DNA of 51,480 nt from an uncultured Acidimicrobiales bacterium (GTDB lineage Bacteria > Actinomycetota > Acidimicrobiia > Acidimicrobiales > CALAML01): the NCBI GenBank assembly GCA_937925845.1, contig CALAML010000023.1, positions 1-51,480 of the forward strand. The letters are read 5' to 3'. Position numbers and translations under genes: made by a program. The notes under the pieces were generated by a model. That model did not search any database. It had not been told where the DNA came from and saw only the letters and a program-made list of their open reading frames with translations. Positions 2 through 17,345 of this stretch are shown piece after piece (position 1 is the first letter of the stretch; each line of letters begins with the position of its first letter).

Positions 2-316
2 GTGCCATCAATCCCGAAAGAACACCCGGCCCGCACCTTTCCGGGCCCGATGCGCCACGCCATCATCGCCGCCGGCCGCGGCCGCTGCCACCACGCCGGC
101 TGCGACGCCCCGGTCCAATGGATACAAGCCGACCACCGCTACCCCCACAGCCTCGGCGGACCCACCAGCTTCGCCAACAGCGAAGGCCAATGCGCCTACC
201 ACAACGGCCTCAAAGGCAACTCGGTACCCGAAAACACCATGCGGCCCATACCGCTGTTCGATACCCCCGAGTCCGACAACCACCAAACCGGTCCCAGCGA
301 GCAGCGCGCCGCCTAG
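2..316 (+). CDS. HNH endonuclease C-terminal fragment (DUF222/13E12-type), left-edge partial
   Basis: The visible part carries a compact HNH-type zinc/nuclease segment: CHHAGCDAP, then QADHRYPHSLGG, then NSEGQCAYHNGLKGN. This matches the C-terminal HNH module of actinobacterial DUF222 proteins (13E12-repeat relatives), which are usually 350-500 residues long. Only about 104 residues are seen. The frame is open at the window edge, so the GTG at base 2 is probably internal. The stop codon TAG lies inside the terminal repeat of the foldback element that begins at 313, so the present C-terminus was probably set by that insertion. Many such genes are mobile or decaying. The family is fairly clear; whether the protein is functional cannot be told. 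Confidence 0.7.
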   Translation: MPSIPKEHPARTFPGPMRHAIIAAGRGRCHHAGCDAPVQWIQADHRYPHSLGGPTSFANSEGQCAYHNGLKGNSVPENTMRPIPLFDTPESDNHQTGPSEQRAA

Positions 317-1921: not shown

Positions 1922-2131
1922 ATGGATCGGAACAACGACGGCGCGAAGCCGTCCCGGCGGGATGCACTTCGTAAGGGTGCCGCCATCAACTTCCTTATCA
2001 ACAGCGCAGCATTTGGTGCTCAAACCGGTGCGACCAATGGTTCATCAGTCCGAGAGTTCTTCGGACCAATCAACTCATTCATGCCCAGCGGATCCGGCAG
2101 CTATGGCGGGACCATCACCTGTTGCGACTAG
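1922..2131 (+). CDS. Short Tat-leader peptide ending Cys-Cys-Asp (family member 1)
   Basis: A 69-residue product. The ATG is chosen because GGGAAGGG sits 6-8 bases upstream, the same signal used by the two paralogues nearby. The N-terminus has PSRRDALRKGAA, a twin-arginine leader matching the 156-residue paralogue at 2990-3460 almost residue for residue. The C-terminal half, VREFFGPINSF...GTITCCD, matches that paralogue's AREFFGPVNAV...GSIACD. The piece between (the W-AP...LSLRPEYAAA signal end and about 90 residues of domain) is missing, so this looks like an internally deleted copy or a minimal peptide. It overlaps the convergent paralogue by 4 bases at the stop codons. Function unknown; export by Tat is inferred and may be lost. 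Confidence 0.65.
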   Translation: MDRNNDGAKPSRRDALRKGAAINFLINSAAFGAQTGATNGSSVREFFGPINSFMPSGSGSYGGTITCCD

Positions 2132-2139
2132 TCGCAACA
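2120..2139. repeat. 20 bp perfect palindrome at convergent stop codons
   Basis: TGTTGCGACTAGTCGCAACA is a perfect palindrome. It arises because the two convergent Tat-leader genes both end with Cys-Cys-Asp-stop using the same codons, TGT TGC GAC TAG, with stops overlapping over 2128-2131. It has no loop, so it is not a typical terminator. It may be a by-product of the conserved tail, or a recombination or protein-binding site. Confidence 0.7.
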
Positions 2140-2742
2140 AAGGCGAGCCCGCACCGTCCACGTGACATCGTCACGCTTACACCTGTCCTCAAGCCCTGAA
2201 GAAAGTAGCGCCCCTACCCCGATGGCACGGCCAAGGCCGAGCGTCGCCGGCTCGTTGGTCGGTGCGTTGAATGGACCGATTCCGAGATCTGCAGGCGAGA
2301 CCGTAACGTCCAGTGTGCATCGGTCTGCTTCGGTGACCGCCGGGCCGTTCACGAATTCAGTGGAGAAACCAGGTCCAAAAAACGCCACAGCAAACACCCC
2401 ACTGGAGAGGGACTCACAAGCGAAGTCCCTAAAGAGGCCCGCGGCCGCGCCTTGAACGCATGTCGCATCCCCATCGAGGGAGACGATCTCCCTTCGCCCG
2501 GAGCTAGAAGGATCACCAAAGAAGGTTCTCCGTATGACGGGGATGGTGACATCGAAACACTTACCGGCACACGGGCCCTCCGCCACACTTTGAGCTGCGG
2601 CGTAGTCGGGTCTTAACGACAGCCCCTCAATCCTTGGCGCCGCCCACACCACTCCGCCCGCAGTACCGAGCGCTGCGCTCTTACGAAGCATCTCCCGCCG
2701 AGACGTCCGCTTCTCTGCCCTACTTGCATCCCCGCCACTCAT
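2128..2742 (-). CDS. Tat-signal exported protein ending Cys-Cys-Asp (family member 2)
   Basis: A 204-residue protein. The ATG at 2742 is preferred over earlier frames because GGGAAGG lies just upstream, as in both paralogues. Residues 1-45 form a Tat signal: TSRREMLRKSAALG, a hydrophobic stretch with VVWAAPRIEGLSLRPDYAAAQS, and probable cleavage near AAAQS. The mature part of about 160 residues has several cysteines (GPCAGKCFD, ATCVQG, FACES, DRCTLD, DRCKRDD) and ends ARLCCD. Cysteine number and export suggest a disulfide-containing extracytoplasmic domain. There is no recognised enzymatic motif. It converges with member 1 and diverges from the relic at 2788-2910. Role unknown; a substrate for the neighbouring modifying enzymes is my inference. 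Confidence 0.75.
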   Translation of the reverse strand: MSGGDASRAEKRTSRREMLRKSAALGTAGGVVWAAPRIEGLSLRPDYAAAQSVAEGPCAGKCFDVTIPVIRRTFFGDPSSSGRREIVSLDGDATCVQGAAAGLFRDFACESLSSGVFAVAFFGPGFSTEFVNGPAVTEADRCTLDVTVSPADLGIGPFNAPTNEPATLGLGRAIGVGALLSSGLEDRCKRDDVTWTVRARLCCD

Positions 2743-2787
2743 GAGCCGCCTTCCCAAACGTCACTCAGGTACCTGACAAAACGCTAA

Positions 2788-2910
2788 CAGGCTTTCCCCG
2801 ACACCGCCGCCAAAACGCTGGCCTACCCCGTCTGCTTCGCTTTCGATGGCGAGGAGTCCGGCCTCGTTCCAGACACCTCATTCACCGGAAACGTCGTCTG
2901 CTGCGATTGA
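2788..2910 (+). pseudogene. Relic of a fourth Cys-Cys-Asp-ending protein
   Basis: A 40-codon frame opens after an in-frame TAA at 2785 and has no plausible start codon or ribosome binding site. It ends TSFTGNVVCCD-stop, closely resembling the tails of the three intact neighbours (GTITCCD, ARLCCD, GSIACD). The upstream part (AYPVCFAFDGEESGLVPD) does not align clearly with them. It overlaps a 24 bp stretch also found at the 3' end of the cupin gene. I read it as a decayed remnant left by duplication or recombination in this locus; a chance tail is possible but the five-residue match plus stop is striking. Confidence 0.45.
2843..2866. repeat. 24 bp copy of the 3' end of the cupin gene (second copy 3481-3504)
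   Basis: Bases 2843-2866 and 3481-3504 are identical at 23 of 24 positions (TCGATGGC, one mismatch, then AGGAGTCCGGCCTCG). In the second copy the minus strand encodes the last residues of the cupin protein, EAGLLAIE. The first copy preserves the same residues on its minus strand, with one extra base just before. This indicates a duplicated and decayed cupin-gene tail in the intergenic space before the third Tat-signal gene. Confidence 0.6.
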
Positions 2911-2989
2911 CCTATGGGGTCCGCTCCTGCGCCGGTTGTCATCGGTAGCGTGTGACCCGTTCAGCACTCAGGTCTCGGGAAGGGCATTT

Positions 2990-3460
2990 GTGGACCAGAA
3001 CGACGTTGGAAGAGGGCCATCCCGGCGGGATGCGCTGCGAAAGGGTTCCGCCTTCGGCCTCGCCACCGGAATCGCTTGGACGGCGCCCAAGGTTTACGGC
3101 CTTAGTCTTCGGCCCGAGTACGCCGCGGCTACATCGGCACCAAACGGACACGCCAACTTCTCCGTGCAACTGGCCGTCTCCTCAAGCTCGATGTACGCGT
3201 TCATTGCGTCTGTCACGCCATCCGATCGGGTGAGCTCCGTGACTGCCTCGGCCAATCCCGCGACATGGACCCTGACAGTCAGTGGCTCCCAAGTAGATCA
3301 GTGCGATCTGGCCACGATCACCGCGACCGGTCTCGGAGTGGCTATCGGGCCGGCTTCCGGGTCCAACCTGGGCTCGAACGCACGAGAGTTCTTTGGCCCG
3401 GTGAATGCGGTCCCACGCTTTGGAGACGCCCAAATCACCGGAAGCATCGCCTGCGACTAG
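2990..3460 (+). CDS. Tat-signal exported protein ending Cys-Asp (family member 3)
   Basis: A 156-residue protein starting at GTG, chosen for the GGGAAGGG seven bases upstream (a longer frame from 2846 has no such site and runs over the relic). The Tat leader PSRRDALRKGSAFG is followed by a hydrophobic core and IAWTAPKVYGLSLRPEYAAATS, the same layout as member 2. The mature region is Ser/Thr/Ala-rich and predicted beta-rich (FSVQLAVSSSS, WTLTVSGSQVDQCD, ATITATGLGVAIG), with NAREFFGPVNAV near the end and a terminal ITGSIACD. Only two cysteines occur, one internal and one in the terminal motif. Its stop lies 7 bases from the convergent cupin gene. Probably exported folded; function unknown. Confidence 0.75.
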   Translation: MDQNDVGRGPSRRDALRKGSAFGLATGIAWTAPKVYGLSLRPEYAAATSAPNGHANFSVQLAVSSSSMYAFIASVTPSDRVSSVTASANPATWTLTVSGSQVDQCDLATITATGLGVAIGPASGSNLGSNAREFFGPVNAVPRFGDAQITGSIACD

Positions 3461-3467
3461 GAGGACA

Positions 3468-4886
3468 CTAGGTATCGGTCTCGATGGCAAGGAGTCCGGC
3501 CTCGACCAGTTCTTCGCAGAGTTGGCCCCTCGCCTCCGGGGCATCTTCGACTTCCGGTAGGTCACCGACCCGGTGGCTTCGACAGTCGGCCAGTTCGGCG
3601 AAGAGATCGGCTACCGGGTTCGCTACTTCGATGAGTTGATCGCCGAAAGCCAGGCGAACCACCGCCGGGTCGCGGTTGATCACGTGCACGCCAGCCGGGA
3701 CTGGCATGCGCACGATCTGATCGTCCCAGTTGTCGTCGGCGACGGCGGCCCACAGGTCGTACAGGCTGGGGAACATCCGTACAGGCAGCCGGGCCCGGTA
3801 GGTGGCCACGGCAACGGCCATGAAGTCGGGTCCGATCACCTCGTCGACCACGTTGCGGAAGCTGTCAGGTTCGTCGTGGAGCGACTTGTCGTAGGCCATC
3901 GCCGGAGCATCGAGGTCATAAGCCAGATCGGCCCGCAAAATCGGCTGATGGCCACCGGCGGTGCGCAGGCGTTCCACCACGTCGGTGCCAGTGAGGCGGT
4001 TCACGCCGATGGTGTAGTGCACCGCCAGATCATCCGAGCCAGCCACCTCGTGGCCCCAGCCCCGAGGAATCACCAGCGCCATGCCGGGTTCGAGGTAGCC
4101 CTCCCAAACCGGCCTTGGGCTCACCTGAGGACCGACCCAAGGTCGCATCGGTGACAAAGCCAGCGGTTCGTACACCTTCCACAGTTTGGCCCCGGCCGCC
4201 GGCACGATGATGGTGTCGTGCTGGTCCCAGTGCTGGCCAAAGCCGAGAGCCTCGCCCCACGACAGATAGACGTTCGTATTCACCCGGCAGCCGTAGACCC
4301 GTTCGAGGTGTTCGTGCACACCGCCGATGACCGGGTCGATGTCGTCGATCCCGTTGATGATGACCGTCCAACCCTCACGCAGCGCGGAGACCAAGGGGCC
4401 GGGGCGGACCCGGTTCATCTGGGGCCGGGCGGGGTCGGTCACCCGGTCGGGGCGGAGGCCGGTTTTGCCCGGGTCGCCGTGGGAGAACCGCAACCGGTTT
4501 CCCGGCAGGTTGTGCTCCGCCAGCAGCCGCTCCACCGTTGTTATGGCGTCGAGGTGGTCAAAGAGTTCGGCGCCCAGATTGAGCACCGTGAACCGTCGGT
4601 CGTCGCAGGTCTGGGCCGCGGTGGCAAAGTCGTAGCCCGGAAACCACTTGGCCAGCGCCTCGATCGAGTCGGCTCTGGCTGTGGCGTTCTGTTCGGCCAG
4701 CCGGGCCTGCAGTGGTCCGGCGCTGGCATCGACCAGCCGCACCACCGGGGCCGGACGGGGCAATGGGCTCACTCGAACGAGCTTGCCCTGAAACGTTTGC
4801 GCCTCTACCTGGTTGGCCTTTTCACGTACTTCGGCTTGATCAGCTGGTTGCGCGCCGGCGGCTTCCCCCGCGGCATCGGTGTCCAC
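3468..4886 (-). CDS. JmjC/cupin-type Fe(II)/2-oxoglutarate oxygenase (ROXY-like)
   Basis: A 472-residue protein from a GTG with AGGGGAAG upstream. Residues 165-300 form a JmjC/Cupin_4-like core: TVIINGIDDID, then QHWDQHD with His219 and Asp221 as an HxD pair, AGAKLWKVYEP, GMALVIPRGWGHEV with His279 as the distal ligand, and LAVHYTIG. All three iron ligands are therefore present and an active hydroxylase is likely. The last 70 residues look like a winged-helix/PqqD-like tail, as in ribosomal oxygenases of the YcfD (RoxA) type. Known relatives hydroxylate protein side chains. It lies downstream of the sulfotransferase on the same strand and tail-to-tail with a Tat-signal gene, so an exported-protein substrate is plausible but unproven. 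Confidence 0.82.
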   Translation of the reverse strand: MDTDAAGEAAGAQPADQAEVREKANQVEAQTFQGKLVRVSPLPRPAPVVRLVDASAGPLQARLAEQNATARADSIEALAKWFPGYDFATAAQTCDDRRFTVLNLGAELFDHLDAITTVERLLAEHNLPGNRLRFSHGDPGKTGLRPDRVTDPARPQMNRVRPGPLVSALREGWTVIINGIDDIDPVIGGVHEHLERVYGCRVNTNVYLSWGEALGFGQHWDQHDTIIVPAAGAKLWKVYEPLALSPMRPWVGPQVSPRPVWEGYLEPGMALVIPRGWGHEVAGSDDLAVHYTIGVNRLTGTDVVERLRTAGGHQPILRADLAYDLDAPAMAYDKSLHDEPDSFRNVVDEVIGPDFMAVAVATYRARLPVRMFPSLYDLWAAVADDNWDDQIVRMPVPAGVHVINRDPAVVRLAFGDQLIEVANPVADLFAELADCRSHRVGDLPEVEDAPEARGQLCEELVEAGLLAIETDT

Positions 4887-4904
4887 GTCGCTTCCCCTTG
4901 TCGG

Positions 4905-4927
4905 GTCTTCGTTTTCCCTGCGAAGAC
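4905..4927 (-). other. 7 bp stem-loop between sulfotransferase and cupin genes
   Basis: GTCTTCG (4905-4911) pairs exactly with CGAAGAC (4921-4927) across a 9-base loop, in the 69-base gap between two minus-strand genes. It has no strong U-tract after it, so it may modulate relative expression rather than terminate fully. A small chance palindrome is also possible. Confidence 0.35.
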
Positions 4928-4955
4928 TTGCAAACCACAGTAGTTGAGCGGCGAG

Positions 4956-5969
4956 CTACAAGCCTTGCTGCGCCGCCCGCTCCGCCAGCTGAGCGGGCAG
5001 ATCGCCCACCACCCTCGCCAACTGGTCACGGCTTCGAGTGCTCAGCGGCGGATGGCGGTGGCGGCCTTCGGGCTCGAAGCGTTGGCCGTCGACCGGAGCC
5101 TTCGAGTAGTGGCCCAGCTCCCCCAGTGCGGCATCGATGTCGAGGTCGAGCTTGAGGTGTCGCTCGAGGGCGTCCAAGACTCGGCGGGGTTCGGCGGTGA
5201 CCGTGGCGTGATCAACCAAGAGCACCCGCTCGGGGTCGACTCGCAGCGCAGCATCGGCTCCTGCAGCCCAGACCGATGCGTAGATGTCTATGGCGTTAAA
5301 TGGTTGCTCGATGCGGTCAAGCCAGGGCACCCACCGCTGAAGCAGAGCTCGAGGTTGATGGATGCGTCCAGCCCATCCCGGGTGGCCGTCGAGCGAGGAC
5401 TCCACCGTCTCAATCGGGTTGCGGTACACAAACACCATCGGCGTGCCGTCCAACAACTCGCTGTGACGACCCATCGAGAAGCTCTCCCAACTCGAGTGCT
5501 TGATCACCACCCGCTGGTTGCGGCTGGCGGCAAAGCGATCGAAGGCCACCAGGGCCGCGTGCATGGCCCGCTCCACGGTGAAGGTGGGCACGAGAGCAGA
5601 GCCACCGGATTCGCGATGCAGGGCGCCGATCACGCCCGATTCCCGCAGCACCAGCCGGCTGCGGTCGTGGCCCACCATGCGGCTGATGAGCGTCGACCCG
5701 CACCGACCCACGTGAAAGATCATGCCGGTGGTCGCCGGCCTGATGCCGGTGGTGATCCGGTTGAGTTCGTCGAAGGTTACCGACACCTTCTCGAGGTCAC
5801 CGGCGGTATCAGCGGCCTCAAGTTCGGTCATGGTGTTGTGCCAGAACGGTCGATCGAAATCGAGATCGTCCGGGGGTTGGATGAACTCGATCCGCTGCTC
5901 ATGGGTGACGGCGCGATAGGGCATCAGGCCATCGAGGTCTTTGAGTTGCTGCGGTGCAGTAATGGTCAT
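4956..5969 (-). CDS. PAPS-dependent sulfotransferase family protein
   Basis: A 337-residue protein. Residues 83-98, MIFHVGRCGSTLISRM, form the 5'-phosphosulfate-binding loop of the P-loop sulfotransferase family. A second PAPS-contact region is likely at VVIKHSSWES...MVFVYRNPIETVESSLDGHPG. These enzymes transfer sulfate from PAPS to hydroxyl or amine groups of proteins, sugars or small molecules. No membrane segment or signal is seen, so it should act in the cytoplasm, before any Tat export. It starts 88 bases from the divergent kinase gene and is followed on the same strand by the cupin oxygenase. Hydroxylation followed by sulfation of the same target is an attractive but unverified reading. 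Some P-loop members of this family have other activities. Confidence 0.8.
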   Translation of the reverse strand: MTITAPQQLKDLDGLMPYRAVTHEQRIEFIQPPDDLDFDRPFWHNTMTELEAADTAGDLEKVSVTFDELNRITTGIRPATTGMIFHVGRCGSTLISRMVGHDRSRLVLRESGVIGALHRESGGSALVPTFTVERAMHAALVAFDRFAASRNQRVVIKHSSWESFSMGRHSELLDGTPMVFVYRNPIETVESSLDGHPGWAGRIHQPRALLQRWVPWLDRIEQPFNAIDIYASVWAAGADAALRVDPERVLLVDHATVTAEPRRVLDALERHLKLDLDIDAALGELGHYSKAPVDGQRFEPEGRHRHPPLSTRSRDQLARVVGDLPAQLAERAAQQGL

Positions 5970-6018
5970 GGTGGTTGCCCAGCGACGCCGCCGGGCTCTT
6001 CAGAGTGCCATTTGTTTG

Positions 6019-6051
6019 GCGCCGGGTCGATCAACTCCGGCGCGGTAGTGT
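6019..6051 (+). promoter_or_regulatory. Divergent intergenic inverted repeat with -10-like box
   Basis: GCGCCGG (6019-6025) and CCGGCGC (6037-6043) form a 7 bp inverted repeat with an 11-base spacer. Immediately after it is TAGTGT (6046-6051), a TANNNT -10-like box 6 bases before the ATG of the kinase gene. With no Shine-Dalgarno present, a leaderless mRNA is plausible, and the repeat would sit where a repressor could act. No good -35 was found. Confidence 0.35.
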
Positions 6052-6057
6052 TGTTCT

Positions 6058-7257
6058 ATGTCGGGGTATCGGGAAGGCTCCGCCGGGAATACGGCGCGGG
6101 ATCCTCGGCCGCGCCGCGCCCAGGCCACAAGACCCGAACCTCCGGATGACACCCGGTGGCACCAGGGCACCCCTCGAGCGGTTGGCCCCTTCGAGGTAAC
6201 GCCGGAGTCCAACGATCCTGAGTTGGTGGCGTTTCTTGATCGCTTGCTCGGCGACCTACCCGCTGGACGTCGGGTCGAGAATCGGGAGTCCCTCGTGCTT
6301 CGTTGGTGGAGGCGGCCTGACGAGTCGGCGCCGATCGTCGCCTGGTTTGATGGCCAACGGGCCGGGTCAAACCGCAACCCACAGCGCTTAGCGGCCACAT
6401 CGACCCGCAAGCTCAACCGGGCTCGCCTCGATCGGGAGACCGAACTCGCCCATCTGCATGCCGGTGCCGTGACCCGCGACGGGGTGACGGTGATGATTCT
6501 TGGGGCGTCGATGTCGGGCAAGTCCACCCTGACTGCGCACCTGGTGTCCGAAGGGTGGTCCTACCTCAGCGACGAACAACTGGCCGTCTCAACGGACGGA
6601 CGCATCCATCCCTATCAACGGCCGTTGACGCTGCGCTCCGAATCGTGGCCGTTGTTCGCCCACATCCCCGAGGTGCCGACCAGCAACGACACCGACCTGC
6701 CTCGCCTCGACATTCCAGCTTCGGCCTTTGGGCCCGTCTACCACGGCCCTGCGCTGATGCCGGACCTGATCGTGGCGCCGGACGTATCCGTCGCCGAAGC
6801 GACGGTTCAGCGGCTCACGACGGCCCGCACCCTCGAGGCCCTGATCGGCGACTCTCTCGATCTGGAGCGGGCCGACCAGGTGGGCCGTGATGGCCTGCTC
6901 GCCCTGGCCCAGGTCCCGAGCTACCGCATCGCCGGACAGGATCTTGCTCGAACCACCGAAGCCATCGAGGCTCTGGCGGTCGAGGGTGGTGGCGACGCAC
7001 CCCGGCCGCCGGTCTCGGTACCGGCCGGTTCCGGTGACTCGATCCGCTCGACGACGGCGATGGCTTGGCTCTTCGGTGACGGGTCAAGCCTGATCTATGA
7101 CCGGGTCAGCGGGGTGGTTGCCGTAGTCGACGCGGCCGGGTTCGAAGCGTGGCGTCGGGCCGACACCCTTGCTGTCGCCTCGGACACAACGCCGGAACAG
7201 CTCGACTTTCTCCGGACGTTGGGCAAGGCCGGTCTGCTCGATGGAGCAGGGATCTAA
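6058..7257 (+). CDS. HPr-kinase-like ATPase with C-terminal PqqD-like domain
   Basis: A 399-residue protein. Residues 131-180 are typical of HprK-related kinases: AHLHAGAV, Walker A GASMSGKST (149-157), then EGWSYLSDEQLAV. There is no HPr, PTS or typical HprK N-terminal domain, so it belongs to the HprK-related group found with peptide-modification systems rather than carbon-catabolite control. Residues about 335-399 (MAWLFGDGSSLIYDRVSGVVAVVD ... FLRTLGKAGLLDG, in pieces) resemble a PqqD-type peptide-binding winged helix. The stop and the next start overlap as TAATG, so translation is probably coupled. It is divergent from the sulfotransferase. The phosphorylated target is unknown; the PqqD-like end suggests it binds a leader peptide. 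Confidence 0.7.
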   Translation: MSGYREGSAGNTARDPRPRRAQATRPEPPDDTRWHQGTPRAVGPFEVTPESNDPELVAFLDRLLGDLPAGRRVENRESLVLRWWRRPDESAPIVAWFDGQRAGSNRNPQRLAATSTRKLNRARLDRETELAHLHAGAVTRDGVTVMILGASMSGKSTLTAHLVSEGWSYLSDEQLAVSTDGRIHPYQRPLTLRSESWPLFAHIPEVPTSNDTDLPRLDIPASAFGPVYHGPALMPDLIVAPDVSVAEATVQRLTTARTLEALIGDSLDLERADQVGRDGLLALAQVPSYRIAGQDLARTTEAIEALAVEGGGDAPRPPVSVPAGSGDSIRSTTAMAWLFGDGSSLIYDRVSGVVAVVDAAGFEAWRRADTLAVASDTTPEQLDFLRTLGKAGLLDGAGI

Positions 7258-9059
7258 TGGTTGATACCAACGACAACACGAGCGCCTCACCGCTGATCCT
7301 GAGCTGGAGCGAGCTCTCCGAACCACCGCAGCTTTTCCTCGACAGCTTTCTCCAAGAGGGTCTGGCCCGCGCCAACACGCTGGCCGCCGATGCCGCCCGG
7401 GCCCGGGTCTCCGCCGCCTTGAGCATCGATCTGACTGACCAGGCCGACCAGGCTGAAGAATCCGACTCCGGCCCTTCTCCTCGGCTTGGTGTGTTGGCGG
7501 GCTGGCAACCGCCCGAAGACATCATGGCTCTGGCTCAACAGGTGGTCGCCGGGTCGACCGCCGCGGGAAAGACCGCGGCTCGGCTGGTGTTTCCGGAGGG
7601 TTCGGCCCCACTCGGACCCGGTATCGACACTGCTGATTCCGACACTGCTGATTCCGACACTCCTGACTCCGGTGCGGCACCACGGGTGGATCTTCGCCGA
7701 CCGGCGCATCTGCTCCGCCGACTCGACCAGGGCTGGACACTCGAGGCGCAGGAACCGGTGGGTCTGGCCCCGGAGCTGAGCCATCTAGTCGGCGACCTCG
7801 AGACCGCTTTTGGACCGGTGATGGTCACCTTCAGCCTCGGGTTGCGCTCCGCCCTCGGTGCCGCGCCTTCGGCGAATCCAGGCGGCTGCCTTTTTGTGCA
7901 ACTGGCCGGGACCCGAGCACTATTGCTGCGAGGCGAAGCCGACCAGCAACAGTTCCGGGTTGGTGCCGGTCAGGTGGTGTGGGTTCCCAGCCCGTGGGTC
8001 GCCCAGCACCTGCCACTGGATGCCGACAGCGCCCATCTCACAATCGCCCTGGCCCAGTCCCCGCTCTCCACATCAGATCGTTCCGCACCAGGTGAGCCGG
8101 CGTGGTCCGACCAGACCGAAGCCGACCCCGCCATGTACCCGGCCCGAGCCAGCTACGACATGGCTGGAGCTCGGGGGTTCTTCGCCGCCGATCCGGCCGC
8201 TGGTTGGATGTTTCGCTGGGCCGCCCCCGCCGGGGCTCTAGCTGCGGCTGATCAACCGGACCCGACCAACGGTCGATCGCTGATCGTGGCCGGCGGCATC
8301 GCCCTTGAGGTGGCTTCCGATGGGCTCCGCCTCATCGAGACTCTGGCCGCTGGCGAGTGGACAACCGCGGCCGCCATCAGCGACACCACCAACCTGGATC
8401 CAGTGGCCGTGGGCGCGGCCATCGAGGAGCTGGCCACGCTGGGCCTGGTGACCCTCGCTCCGGCCCGCCGGGACCATCGGACCAACACCTTCCTCAACGG
8501 GGTGGCTCGGGGTGTGTCGATGCCAGCAGAGATGGTGGGCCAGCTCATCGCCACCATCGATGAAGCCAAGTGGCGACCACCCACACCAACCGAGGTGCGC
8601 GCTGTTGACACGAATACGGTGCAAGTCCAGTCCCTCGCTCCCGATGGTTATCCGCTTGTTGCCGAGGTGGTTCGGGCCGTGGCCATGTTGAACGCCCAGT
8701 TCTTTGGGGCCGACATCAATGGCCAACAGGAGGATGATCCACCGCTGATGGTCCGGTTGCGTGTTGGCGAATCGGGCTCACCGTTCGACCCGCTGGATTC
8801 TCTTGGCAGCGATATCGAAGGCGACAATGAGGGCCGCACCAACACCAGCCGCAAGCTCACTTGGGTGCTGTCGCTGAGCGACGCTGAGGGTTCAGCACAG
8901 GGTGGGTGGTTTGTGATGCCGGGTGGTTCCGACAAGGTTGAGCCGACTCCGGGCGAGGTCTCGGTCTTTCCCGCGTTTCGACTGTGGACGCTGGCTCCTC
9001 TCGAGGCCGGCGAGCGGCTGCTACTCCTCGGCCGCCTTCACGGTCCGGCGTTTCGCTGA
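7257..9059 (+). CDS. Fusion protein: degenerate cupin, PqqD-like and degenerate prolyl-hydroxylase-like domains
   Basis: A 600-residue protein starting at the ATG that overlaps the kinase stop. Residues about 145-270 follow the JmjC/cupin pattern (LLRRLDQGWTLEAQE, CLFVQLAGTRALLL, VGAGQVVWVPSPWVAQHLPL, SAHLTIAL), but where HxD is expected there is GAAPSANPGG. Residues about 340-405 resemble a PqqD/winged-helix module (GGIALEVASDGLRLIETLAAGEW...ELATLGLVTL). Residues about 425-600 resemble a P4H-type 2-oxoglutarate oxygenase (RLRVGESGSPF, KLTWVLSLSD, GGWFVMPGG, PGEVSVFPAFRLWTLAPLEAGERLLLLGRLHG); the HxD and the distal His are not seen, Leu-Trp-Thr replacing the latter region. Both oxygenase folds thus look non-catalytic, suggesting a scaffold or substrate-binding role. 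Residues 125-139 are a tandem repeat linker. Confidence 0.6.
   Translation: MVDTNDNTSASPLILSWSELSEPPQLFLDSFLQEGLARANTLAADAARARVSAALSIDLTDQADQAEESDSGPSPRLGVLAGWQPPEDIMALAQQVVAGSTAAGKTAARLVFPEGSAPLGPGIDTADSDTADSDTPDSGAAPRVDLRRPAHLLRRLDQGWTLEAQEPVGLAPELSHLVGDLETAFGPVMVTFSLGLRSALGAAPSANPGGCLFVQLAGTRALLLRGEADQQQFRVGAGQVVWVPSPWVAQHLPLDADSAHLTIALAQSPLSTSDRSAPGEPAWSDQTEADPAMYPARASYDMAGARGFFAADPAAGWMFRWAAPAGALAAADQPDPTNGRSLIVAGGIALEVASDGLRLIETLAAGEWTTAAAISDTTNLDPVAVGAAIEELATLGLVTLAPARRDHRTNTFLNGVARGVSMPAEMVGQLIATIDEAKWRPPTPTEVRAVDTNTVQVQSLAPDGYPLVAEVVRAVAMLNAQFFGADINGQQEDDPPLMVRLRVGESGSPFDPLDSLGSDIEGDNEGRTNTSRKLTWVLSLSDAEGSAQGGWFVMPGGSDKVEPTPGEVSVFPAFRLWTLAPLEAGERLLLLGRLHGPAFR
7626..7670 (+). repeat. 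15 bp tandem repeat, three units, in the fusion gene
   Basis: Two perfect copies of GACACTGCTGATTCC are followed by a third with two mismatches. It encodes the linker DTADS-DTADS-DTPDS between the N-terminal region and the cupin-like domain. Copy number may vary between strains; it does not disturb the frame because the unit is a multiple of three. Confidence 0.85.

Positions 9060-15701: not shown

Positions 15702-17345
<1,644 letters not shown>

Follow-up and report, generated by a model that had tools for sequence, protein, structure and literature searches.

Which function ties a group of modifying enzymes to the small exported proteins encoded beside them? This question is raised by a locus of an uncultured Acidimicrobiales bacterium. 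The window analysed here, a stretch of 51,480 nt, is the entire contig C23 (CALAML010000023.1) of a 5.1-Mb draft genome (G000). A cassette at 1.9–9.1 kb encodes three proteins with a twin-arginine translocation (Tat) signal (P1, P2 and P3), a relic of another such protein, a JmjC oxygenase, a sulfotransferase, an HprK-like kinase and a 600-aa fusion protein, and all of these genes, listed in a preliminary description of the DNA, were recovered in place. We consider it probable that the cassette is a dedicated modification system for small Tat-exported proteins, in which the Tat proteins would be the substrates; docking, marks and the order of steps are predicted from sequence.

Composition and conservation of the cassette

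The enzyme genes form two units. The leftward unit consists of the gene for a ROX-type (ribosomal oxygenase) JmjC 2-oxoglutarate oxygenase (3468–4886, minus strand), with an intact HxD...H site and assigned to a Tat-associated clade, and, 69 bp upstream on the same strand, that for the sulfotransferase (4956–5969, minus strand), in which the loop for 3'-phosphoadenosine-5'-phosphosulfate (PAPS) reads FHVGRCGSTL. The rightward unit consists of the kinase gene (6058–7257, plus strand) and the fusion gene (7257–9059, plus strand); the ATG of the latter at 7257 overlaps the stop codon of the former (TAATG), which bears out the coupling described earlier.

The same four genes (Tat protein, HprK, sulfotransferase and JmjC) as in the window occur in G264, where they stand together on one strand, and in L216, a locus of a groundwater actinobacterial metagenome-assembled genome, where they form a tight one-strand operon whose genes overlap once and are otherwise spaced by 37 and 26 bp. 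At most loci with relatives of the fusion there are Tat, JmjC, pseudo-JmjC and HprK genes and P4H pairs, and at some of them sulfotransferases. Judged from these comparisons, the gene set is a conserved system and not a chance neighbourhood, and a functional association of its members is strongly supported. A membrane protein encoded downstream of the JmjC gene in L216 and G264 was considered as a further core part and rejected, being absent from the window's own genome and 13 others.

The JmjC oxygenase and the sulfotransferase

The JmjC fold was recognised by PF08007 (E 1.5e-16), and H219, D221 and H279 are invariant in the clade, in agreement with the intact site reported before. Compared with the PDB, the clade profile matches NO66 best (E 3.5e-25), the nearest structures being NO66/MINA and the L16 hydroxylase. 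This ROX kinship is a relation of sequence, from which an activity on ribosomal proteins could at most be predicted; on the JmjC tree a single group (support 0.967) holds the Tat-associated members together with G319, apart from the generic homologues. The scores are likewise bimodal, with 357–526 bits at Tat-associated loci vs 131–224 bits at all others.

Thirteen loci with a JmjC gene of this clade were found, ten of which were seeds of the JmjC profile (the non-seeds are L163, L216 and G319). G311, G315, G264 and G319 were found with the JmjC profile, and L163 and L216 were added by a scan of one genome per species (84,980 species); in the pattern search alignment A10 worked, and A2 was too diverged. 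Among 397 genomes of the phylum the JmjC search returned no clade member except that of the window, the next best match scoring 174 bits. A motif-bearing Tat protein is present at 11 of the 13 clade loci, and both L163 and L216 carry Tat and HprK genes. The locus in G315 is cut by a contig end and retains HprK, and a motif-bearing Tat protein lies beside another HprK gene of that genome. The generic JmjC loci, some 100 in number and mostly read with flanks of 10 kb, gave no Tat-profile or HprK match and a single weak sulfotransferase match (24 bits). The clade and generic counts speak against the possibility, named in the preliminary description as refuting it, that homologues of the enzymes would mostly occur without such Tat proteins. 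Since the loci were found via the oxygenases and not via Tat, the association is not circular; they served only later as the source of the Tat profile.

The window sulfotransferase scores 20.6 bits with Pfam Sulfotransfer_3, below the cut-off of 27, and two close relatives reach 31 bits. The PAPS loop (RCGSTL or RSGSTL) is kept in all four aligned sequences, as is characteristic of PAPS sulfotransferases. The loop and the relatives bear out the earlier assignment. In 278 genomes the subfamily reaches 423–491 bits at these loci only and at most 90 bits elsewhere, the three top matches being seed members of the model.

Tat-signal proteins and their leader

P2 (2128–2742, minus strand) has 204 aa, the leader RREMLRKSAALGTAGGVVWAAPRIEGLSLRPDYAAA and the ending CCD; it scores 87 bits with the Tat profile, of which it is itself a seed member. 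P3 (2990–3460, plus strand) starts with GTG and has 156 aa, the leader RRDALRKGSAFGLATGIAWTAPKVYGLSLRPEYAAA and the ending ACD. Both leaders comprise a twin-arginine motif, a weakly hydrophobic stretch and an AxA site, and the two proteins are predicted Tat substrates. P1 (1922–2131, plus strand; open reading frame of 69 aa, RR motif, ending TCCD) aligns with P3 at the N- and C-terminal ends, the middle being deleted. The relic (about 2788–2910, plus strand) is a C-terminal remnant of another Tat paralogue, reading ...GLVPDTSFTGNVVCCD / ...VPDTSFTGNVVCCD and then a stop. Of the three paralogues and a relic described before, P2 and P3 are full-length and the relic is present, but P1 is too short for an ordinary paralogue.

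The leaders share the motif RRxxL..W.AP+[VI].G[LF]S..P.YA.A. Signal peptides are normally the less conserved part of an exported protein. Here the pattern is reversed: among the cluster members the leader shows 60% identity vs 28% for the mature part, and the mature parts are diverse and 109–253 aa long. We read this as the pattern expected for a recognition leader, and because conservation would not be concentrated in a signal peptide of the ordinary kind, the leader probably serves as a docking element.

The CCD ending, which had been taken as a mark of these proteins, is not general and was rejected as a defining feature, since the endings vary (CCD, ACD, CV, CT, CS, C, TTT and CNA). What recurs is a Cys in the penultimate position or close to the terminus. 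Five further Tat proteins with a weaker leader motif and no HprK gene nearby are encoded in the same genome (L106 to L110, on G000:C308, C139, C77, C24 and C112, respectively), two of them ending with CP and CD; the enzymes may act in trans on these proteins as additional substrates.

The HprK-like kinase and its pairing with Tat proteins

The kinase matches HprK_rel_A (E 2e-16, under the cut-off), and its residues H134, G154, K155, D172 and E173 (conserved His, Walker A and DE) are invariant across the relatives, as in a P-loop HprK core. The structural model gave Foldseek matches to HprK/P and PEPCK. The best model is TIGR04352 with 59.9 bits (relatives 55–82, cut-off 200); with TIGR00679 the score of 16.5 bits lies far under the cut-off of 240. 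A genome scan with the window HprK alone returned 224 pattern matches, none of which was confirmed.

At the C-terminus (about residues 334–390) the predicted model has the order strand-strand-strand-helix-helix-helix, with a predicted local distance difference test (pLDDT) of 72–86 over most of the domain. This beta3-alpha3 order defines the recognition elements (RREs) of ribosomally synthesized and post-translationally modified peptides (RiPPs) (PMC12710340). The relatives match PqqD profiles at the same C-terminal place, and one of them reaches the TIGR04353 PqqD cut-off. The likeness to PqqD is thus drawn from the model and the relatives, and this PqqD/RRE-like end may bind the leader.

In 397 genomes, weaker matches to the Tat-leader profile repeatedly adjoin HprK-like genes. 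As an unbiased test, 40 loci from the HprK search were scanned, together with controls, for the Tat W..P signature, which replaced a first, permissive Tat expression with too many false matches. The signature occurred within 2 kb of HprK 17 times in 15 of the 40 loci and farther off twice, with 1.1 matches expected (Poisson p ~1e-14); two of the 17 (L138 and L152) appear false by eye, and the control loci gave eight matches in 1.63 Mb. Of 148 genomes sampled within the order, 35 had HprK/PqqD gene sets, such order-wide counts being samples of draft genomes. Several Tat-paired kinases are themselves PqqD-bearing at one end, and the neighbours of the Tat-HprK pair include free-standing PqqD proteins (PF05402, 1e-14) as well as a PF14907 nucleotidyltransferase. 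The wider core is the pair of kinase and Tat protein, to which the JmjC enzyme, the sulfotransferase and the pseudo-oxygenases are additions.

Two HprK-like kinases are fused to an extra domain (L013:5191-7527 and L015:2949-5141); that of L015 reads like a PF14907-type nucleotidyltransferase, recalling the kinase and nucleotidyltransferase of lasso peptide tailoring. A protein of about 185–260 aa (alignment A7) adjoins PqqD and HprK genes in L112, L113, L011 and L007, and by eye resembles an HprK that lacks Walker A, a putative pseudokinase.

The pseudo-oxygenase fusion

The fusion combines a pseudo-JmjC part, a winged helix and a pseudo-P4H part, and both metal sites are lost. By hhalign, the N-terminal part and the JmjC clade are homologues (97.2%, E 4e-11 with the window sequence alone; 98.6% with the family), but this part has lost the metal ligands. 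The pLDDT of the fusion model is low (54.6) and its C-terminal domain alone was used, so the pseudo-JmjC assignment rests on hhalign. For the C-terminal domain the best Foldseek match is the Pseudomonas putida P4H, whose HxD...H site is absent from the fusion, and this part is not counted as an oxygenase. Relatives of the fusion, detected solely through its P4H-like end at two loci in each of three genomes from a single family, carry pseudo-JmjC and pseudo-P4H as separate genes next to active copies.

Proposed function and alternatives

The Tat proteins are most likely modified in the cytoplasm prior to export. Modification before export is sensible, since the cytoplasm is where ATP, PAPS, 2-oxoglutarate and Fe(II) are found and Tat transports proteins in the folded state. 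The leader stretch P+[VI]xG[LF]SxxPxYAxA after the hydrophobic part would double as Tat targeting signal and docking element, to which the kinase would bind with its PqqD/RRE-like end and the JmjC and pseudo-JmjC proteins with their winged helices. In the cytoplasm the kinase would phosphorylate, the JmjC enzyme hydroxylate and the sulfotransferase sulfate side chains, with Ser/Thr or a newly made hydroxyl as likelier acceptors than Tyr. The dead oxygenase fusion might act as a substrate-holding or partner subunit, and the decorated, folded protein would then leave via Tat. More tentatively, and with somewhat less than even confidence, we propose a new maturation class in which Tat signals double as RiPP-style leaders for an RRE-kinase, JmjC enzyme, sulfotransferase and dead-fold partners that act on folded proteins before export, a simpler form with Tat protein and kinase being widespread in Acidimicrobiia.

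Several observations weigh against this reading. Mature P2 contains no Tyr and no His, and NO66-type His hydroxylation and Tyr sulfation of this part were rejected accordingly, which narrows the hydroxylation, sulfation and phosphorylation suggested earlier by two marks on mature P2. When mature parts were compared, no universally common residue stood out as an acceptor. The conserved Ser, Pro and Tyr sit in the leader (as does a conserved Arg in the window, G264 and L216), and cleavage at AxA would normally remove the leader, so that marks on it would be lost. A Pfam search of the window's own genome returned no PqqD domain, and the C-terminal domain of the window kinase is shortened; the PqqD-like end described earlier is thus left to the RRE topology of the model and the matches of the relatives. 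In G093 the full leader motif accompanies HprK, but no JmjC of the clade is among the matches listed, and in G319 the 10-kb contig with the JmjC gene holds no Tat or HprK gene. In addition, exopolysaccharide clusters surround some of the Microthrixaceae loci. What speaks for enzymes acting on the Tat proteins, as in the preliminary description, is the JmjC-Tat association, the PqqD-like kinase end and the conserved leader; its CCD mark is not a defining one, and two of its possible marks are limited by the composition of mature P2.

The Microthrixaceae loci lend themselves to another explanation, namely surface-polysaccharide or envelope assembly, in which the Tat proteins would be structural or accessory and HprK, PqqD and sulfotransferase would act on a polysaccharide or on another protein. 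L008–L015 lie among genes for glycosyltransferases, chain-length regulators and sugar dehydratases, together with HprK_rel and nucleotidyltransferase genes. However, no such genes are near the window, G264 and L216 loci, the ROX-type JmjC enzymes of known activity nearest in structure act on proteins, and leader conservation is given no reason, which makes this explanation unlikely. Slightly less likely still is a RiPP-like arrangement, in which the Tat protein is a mere carrier that, once exported, releases part of its modified C-terminus as a small product, or whose Cys-rich terminus bears the mark. The recurrent near-terminal Cys and the resemblance of the RRE-like domains and HprK tailoring to lasso peptides would fit it, but genes for a protease, a peptide transporter or a cyclase are missing from the conserved set, and the length and diversity of the mature parts are unlike those of core peptides. 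A third reading, in which only the Tat-HprK pair is functional and has as chance neighbours a common ribosomal oxygenase (the JmjC protein) and a common metabolic enzyme (the sulfotransferase), is very improbable: the nearest solved structures and the Tat-HprK pairs without JmjC agree with it, but the JmjC clade, separate in score from generic ROX proteins, is found almost solely at these loci, and the sulfotransferase subfamily (top three matches being seeds) shows the same gap.

Comparison with known systems

The preliminary description knew of no system with this combination, and none was found in the open-access literature searched, most subscription journals being outside that coverage. 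In lasso peptide tailoring (paeninodin and pseudomycoidin), HprK homologues phosphorylate the precursors, the phosphate receives sugar through a nucleotidyltransferase, and sulfotransferase genes accompany both (PMC8498205). The cassette resembles it in the HprK homologue, the putative PqqD-type leader binder, the nucleotidyltransferase and sulfotransferase genes of one neighbourhood, and a ribosomally made substrate with a leader. It differs in predicted Tat export, in long mature parts with no conserved C-terminal Ser, and in the added JmjC enzyme and dead oxygenases. No lasso cyclase (Asn-synthetase-like) or B2 protease was matched in the ten window proteins scanned or seen in the L216 and G264 sets. 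In biphenomycin-like RiPPs, too, a ribosomal precursor is acted on by a JmjC-type hydroxylase together with an RRE protein, but the precursors are short, multinuclear non-haem iron-dependent oxidative enzymes (MNIO) and B12-radical SAM enzymes are used, and neither Tat export nor a kinase is described (PMC12257519).

The HPr-rel-A system (TIGR04352 kinase and TIGR04353 PqqD) is the best match for the kinase core, although all cassette kinases fall far under the 200-bit cut-off; no paper naming either family was found in the literature searched. The ROX-type enzymes (NO66, MINA53 and YcfD) share the JmjC fold and HxD...H with the cassette clade, which differs in being separate, tied to Tat proteins and accompanied by a dead copy; His, the target residue of NO66/MINA, is the one that mature P2 lacks. 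If the proposed modification is true, the export signal itself would organise how bacterial surface proteins are phosphorylated, hydroxylated and sulfated, RiPP-style leader recognition would be linked to the Tat pathway, a link undescribed in the same literature, and the uncharacterised HprK/PqqD gene sets would gain a substrate class.

Other features of the loci

The relatives in the order bear the names Microthrixaceae and Acidimicrobiales. Three of their loci (L008, L009 and L163) have, besides the cassette, genes for a peroxiredoxin (AhpC/TSA) and genes reading like Rieske and PhyH-type oxygenases. A family of exported proteins with a single membrane span follows the cassette in L216 (11181-12515) and in G264 (L054:14525-15859 and 15872-17308), with five matches in G264 and none in the window's genome. 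At the contig start, window positions 2–316 hold an HNH-like open reading frame (PF14279, score under the cut-off).

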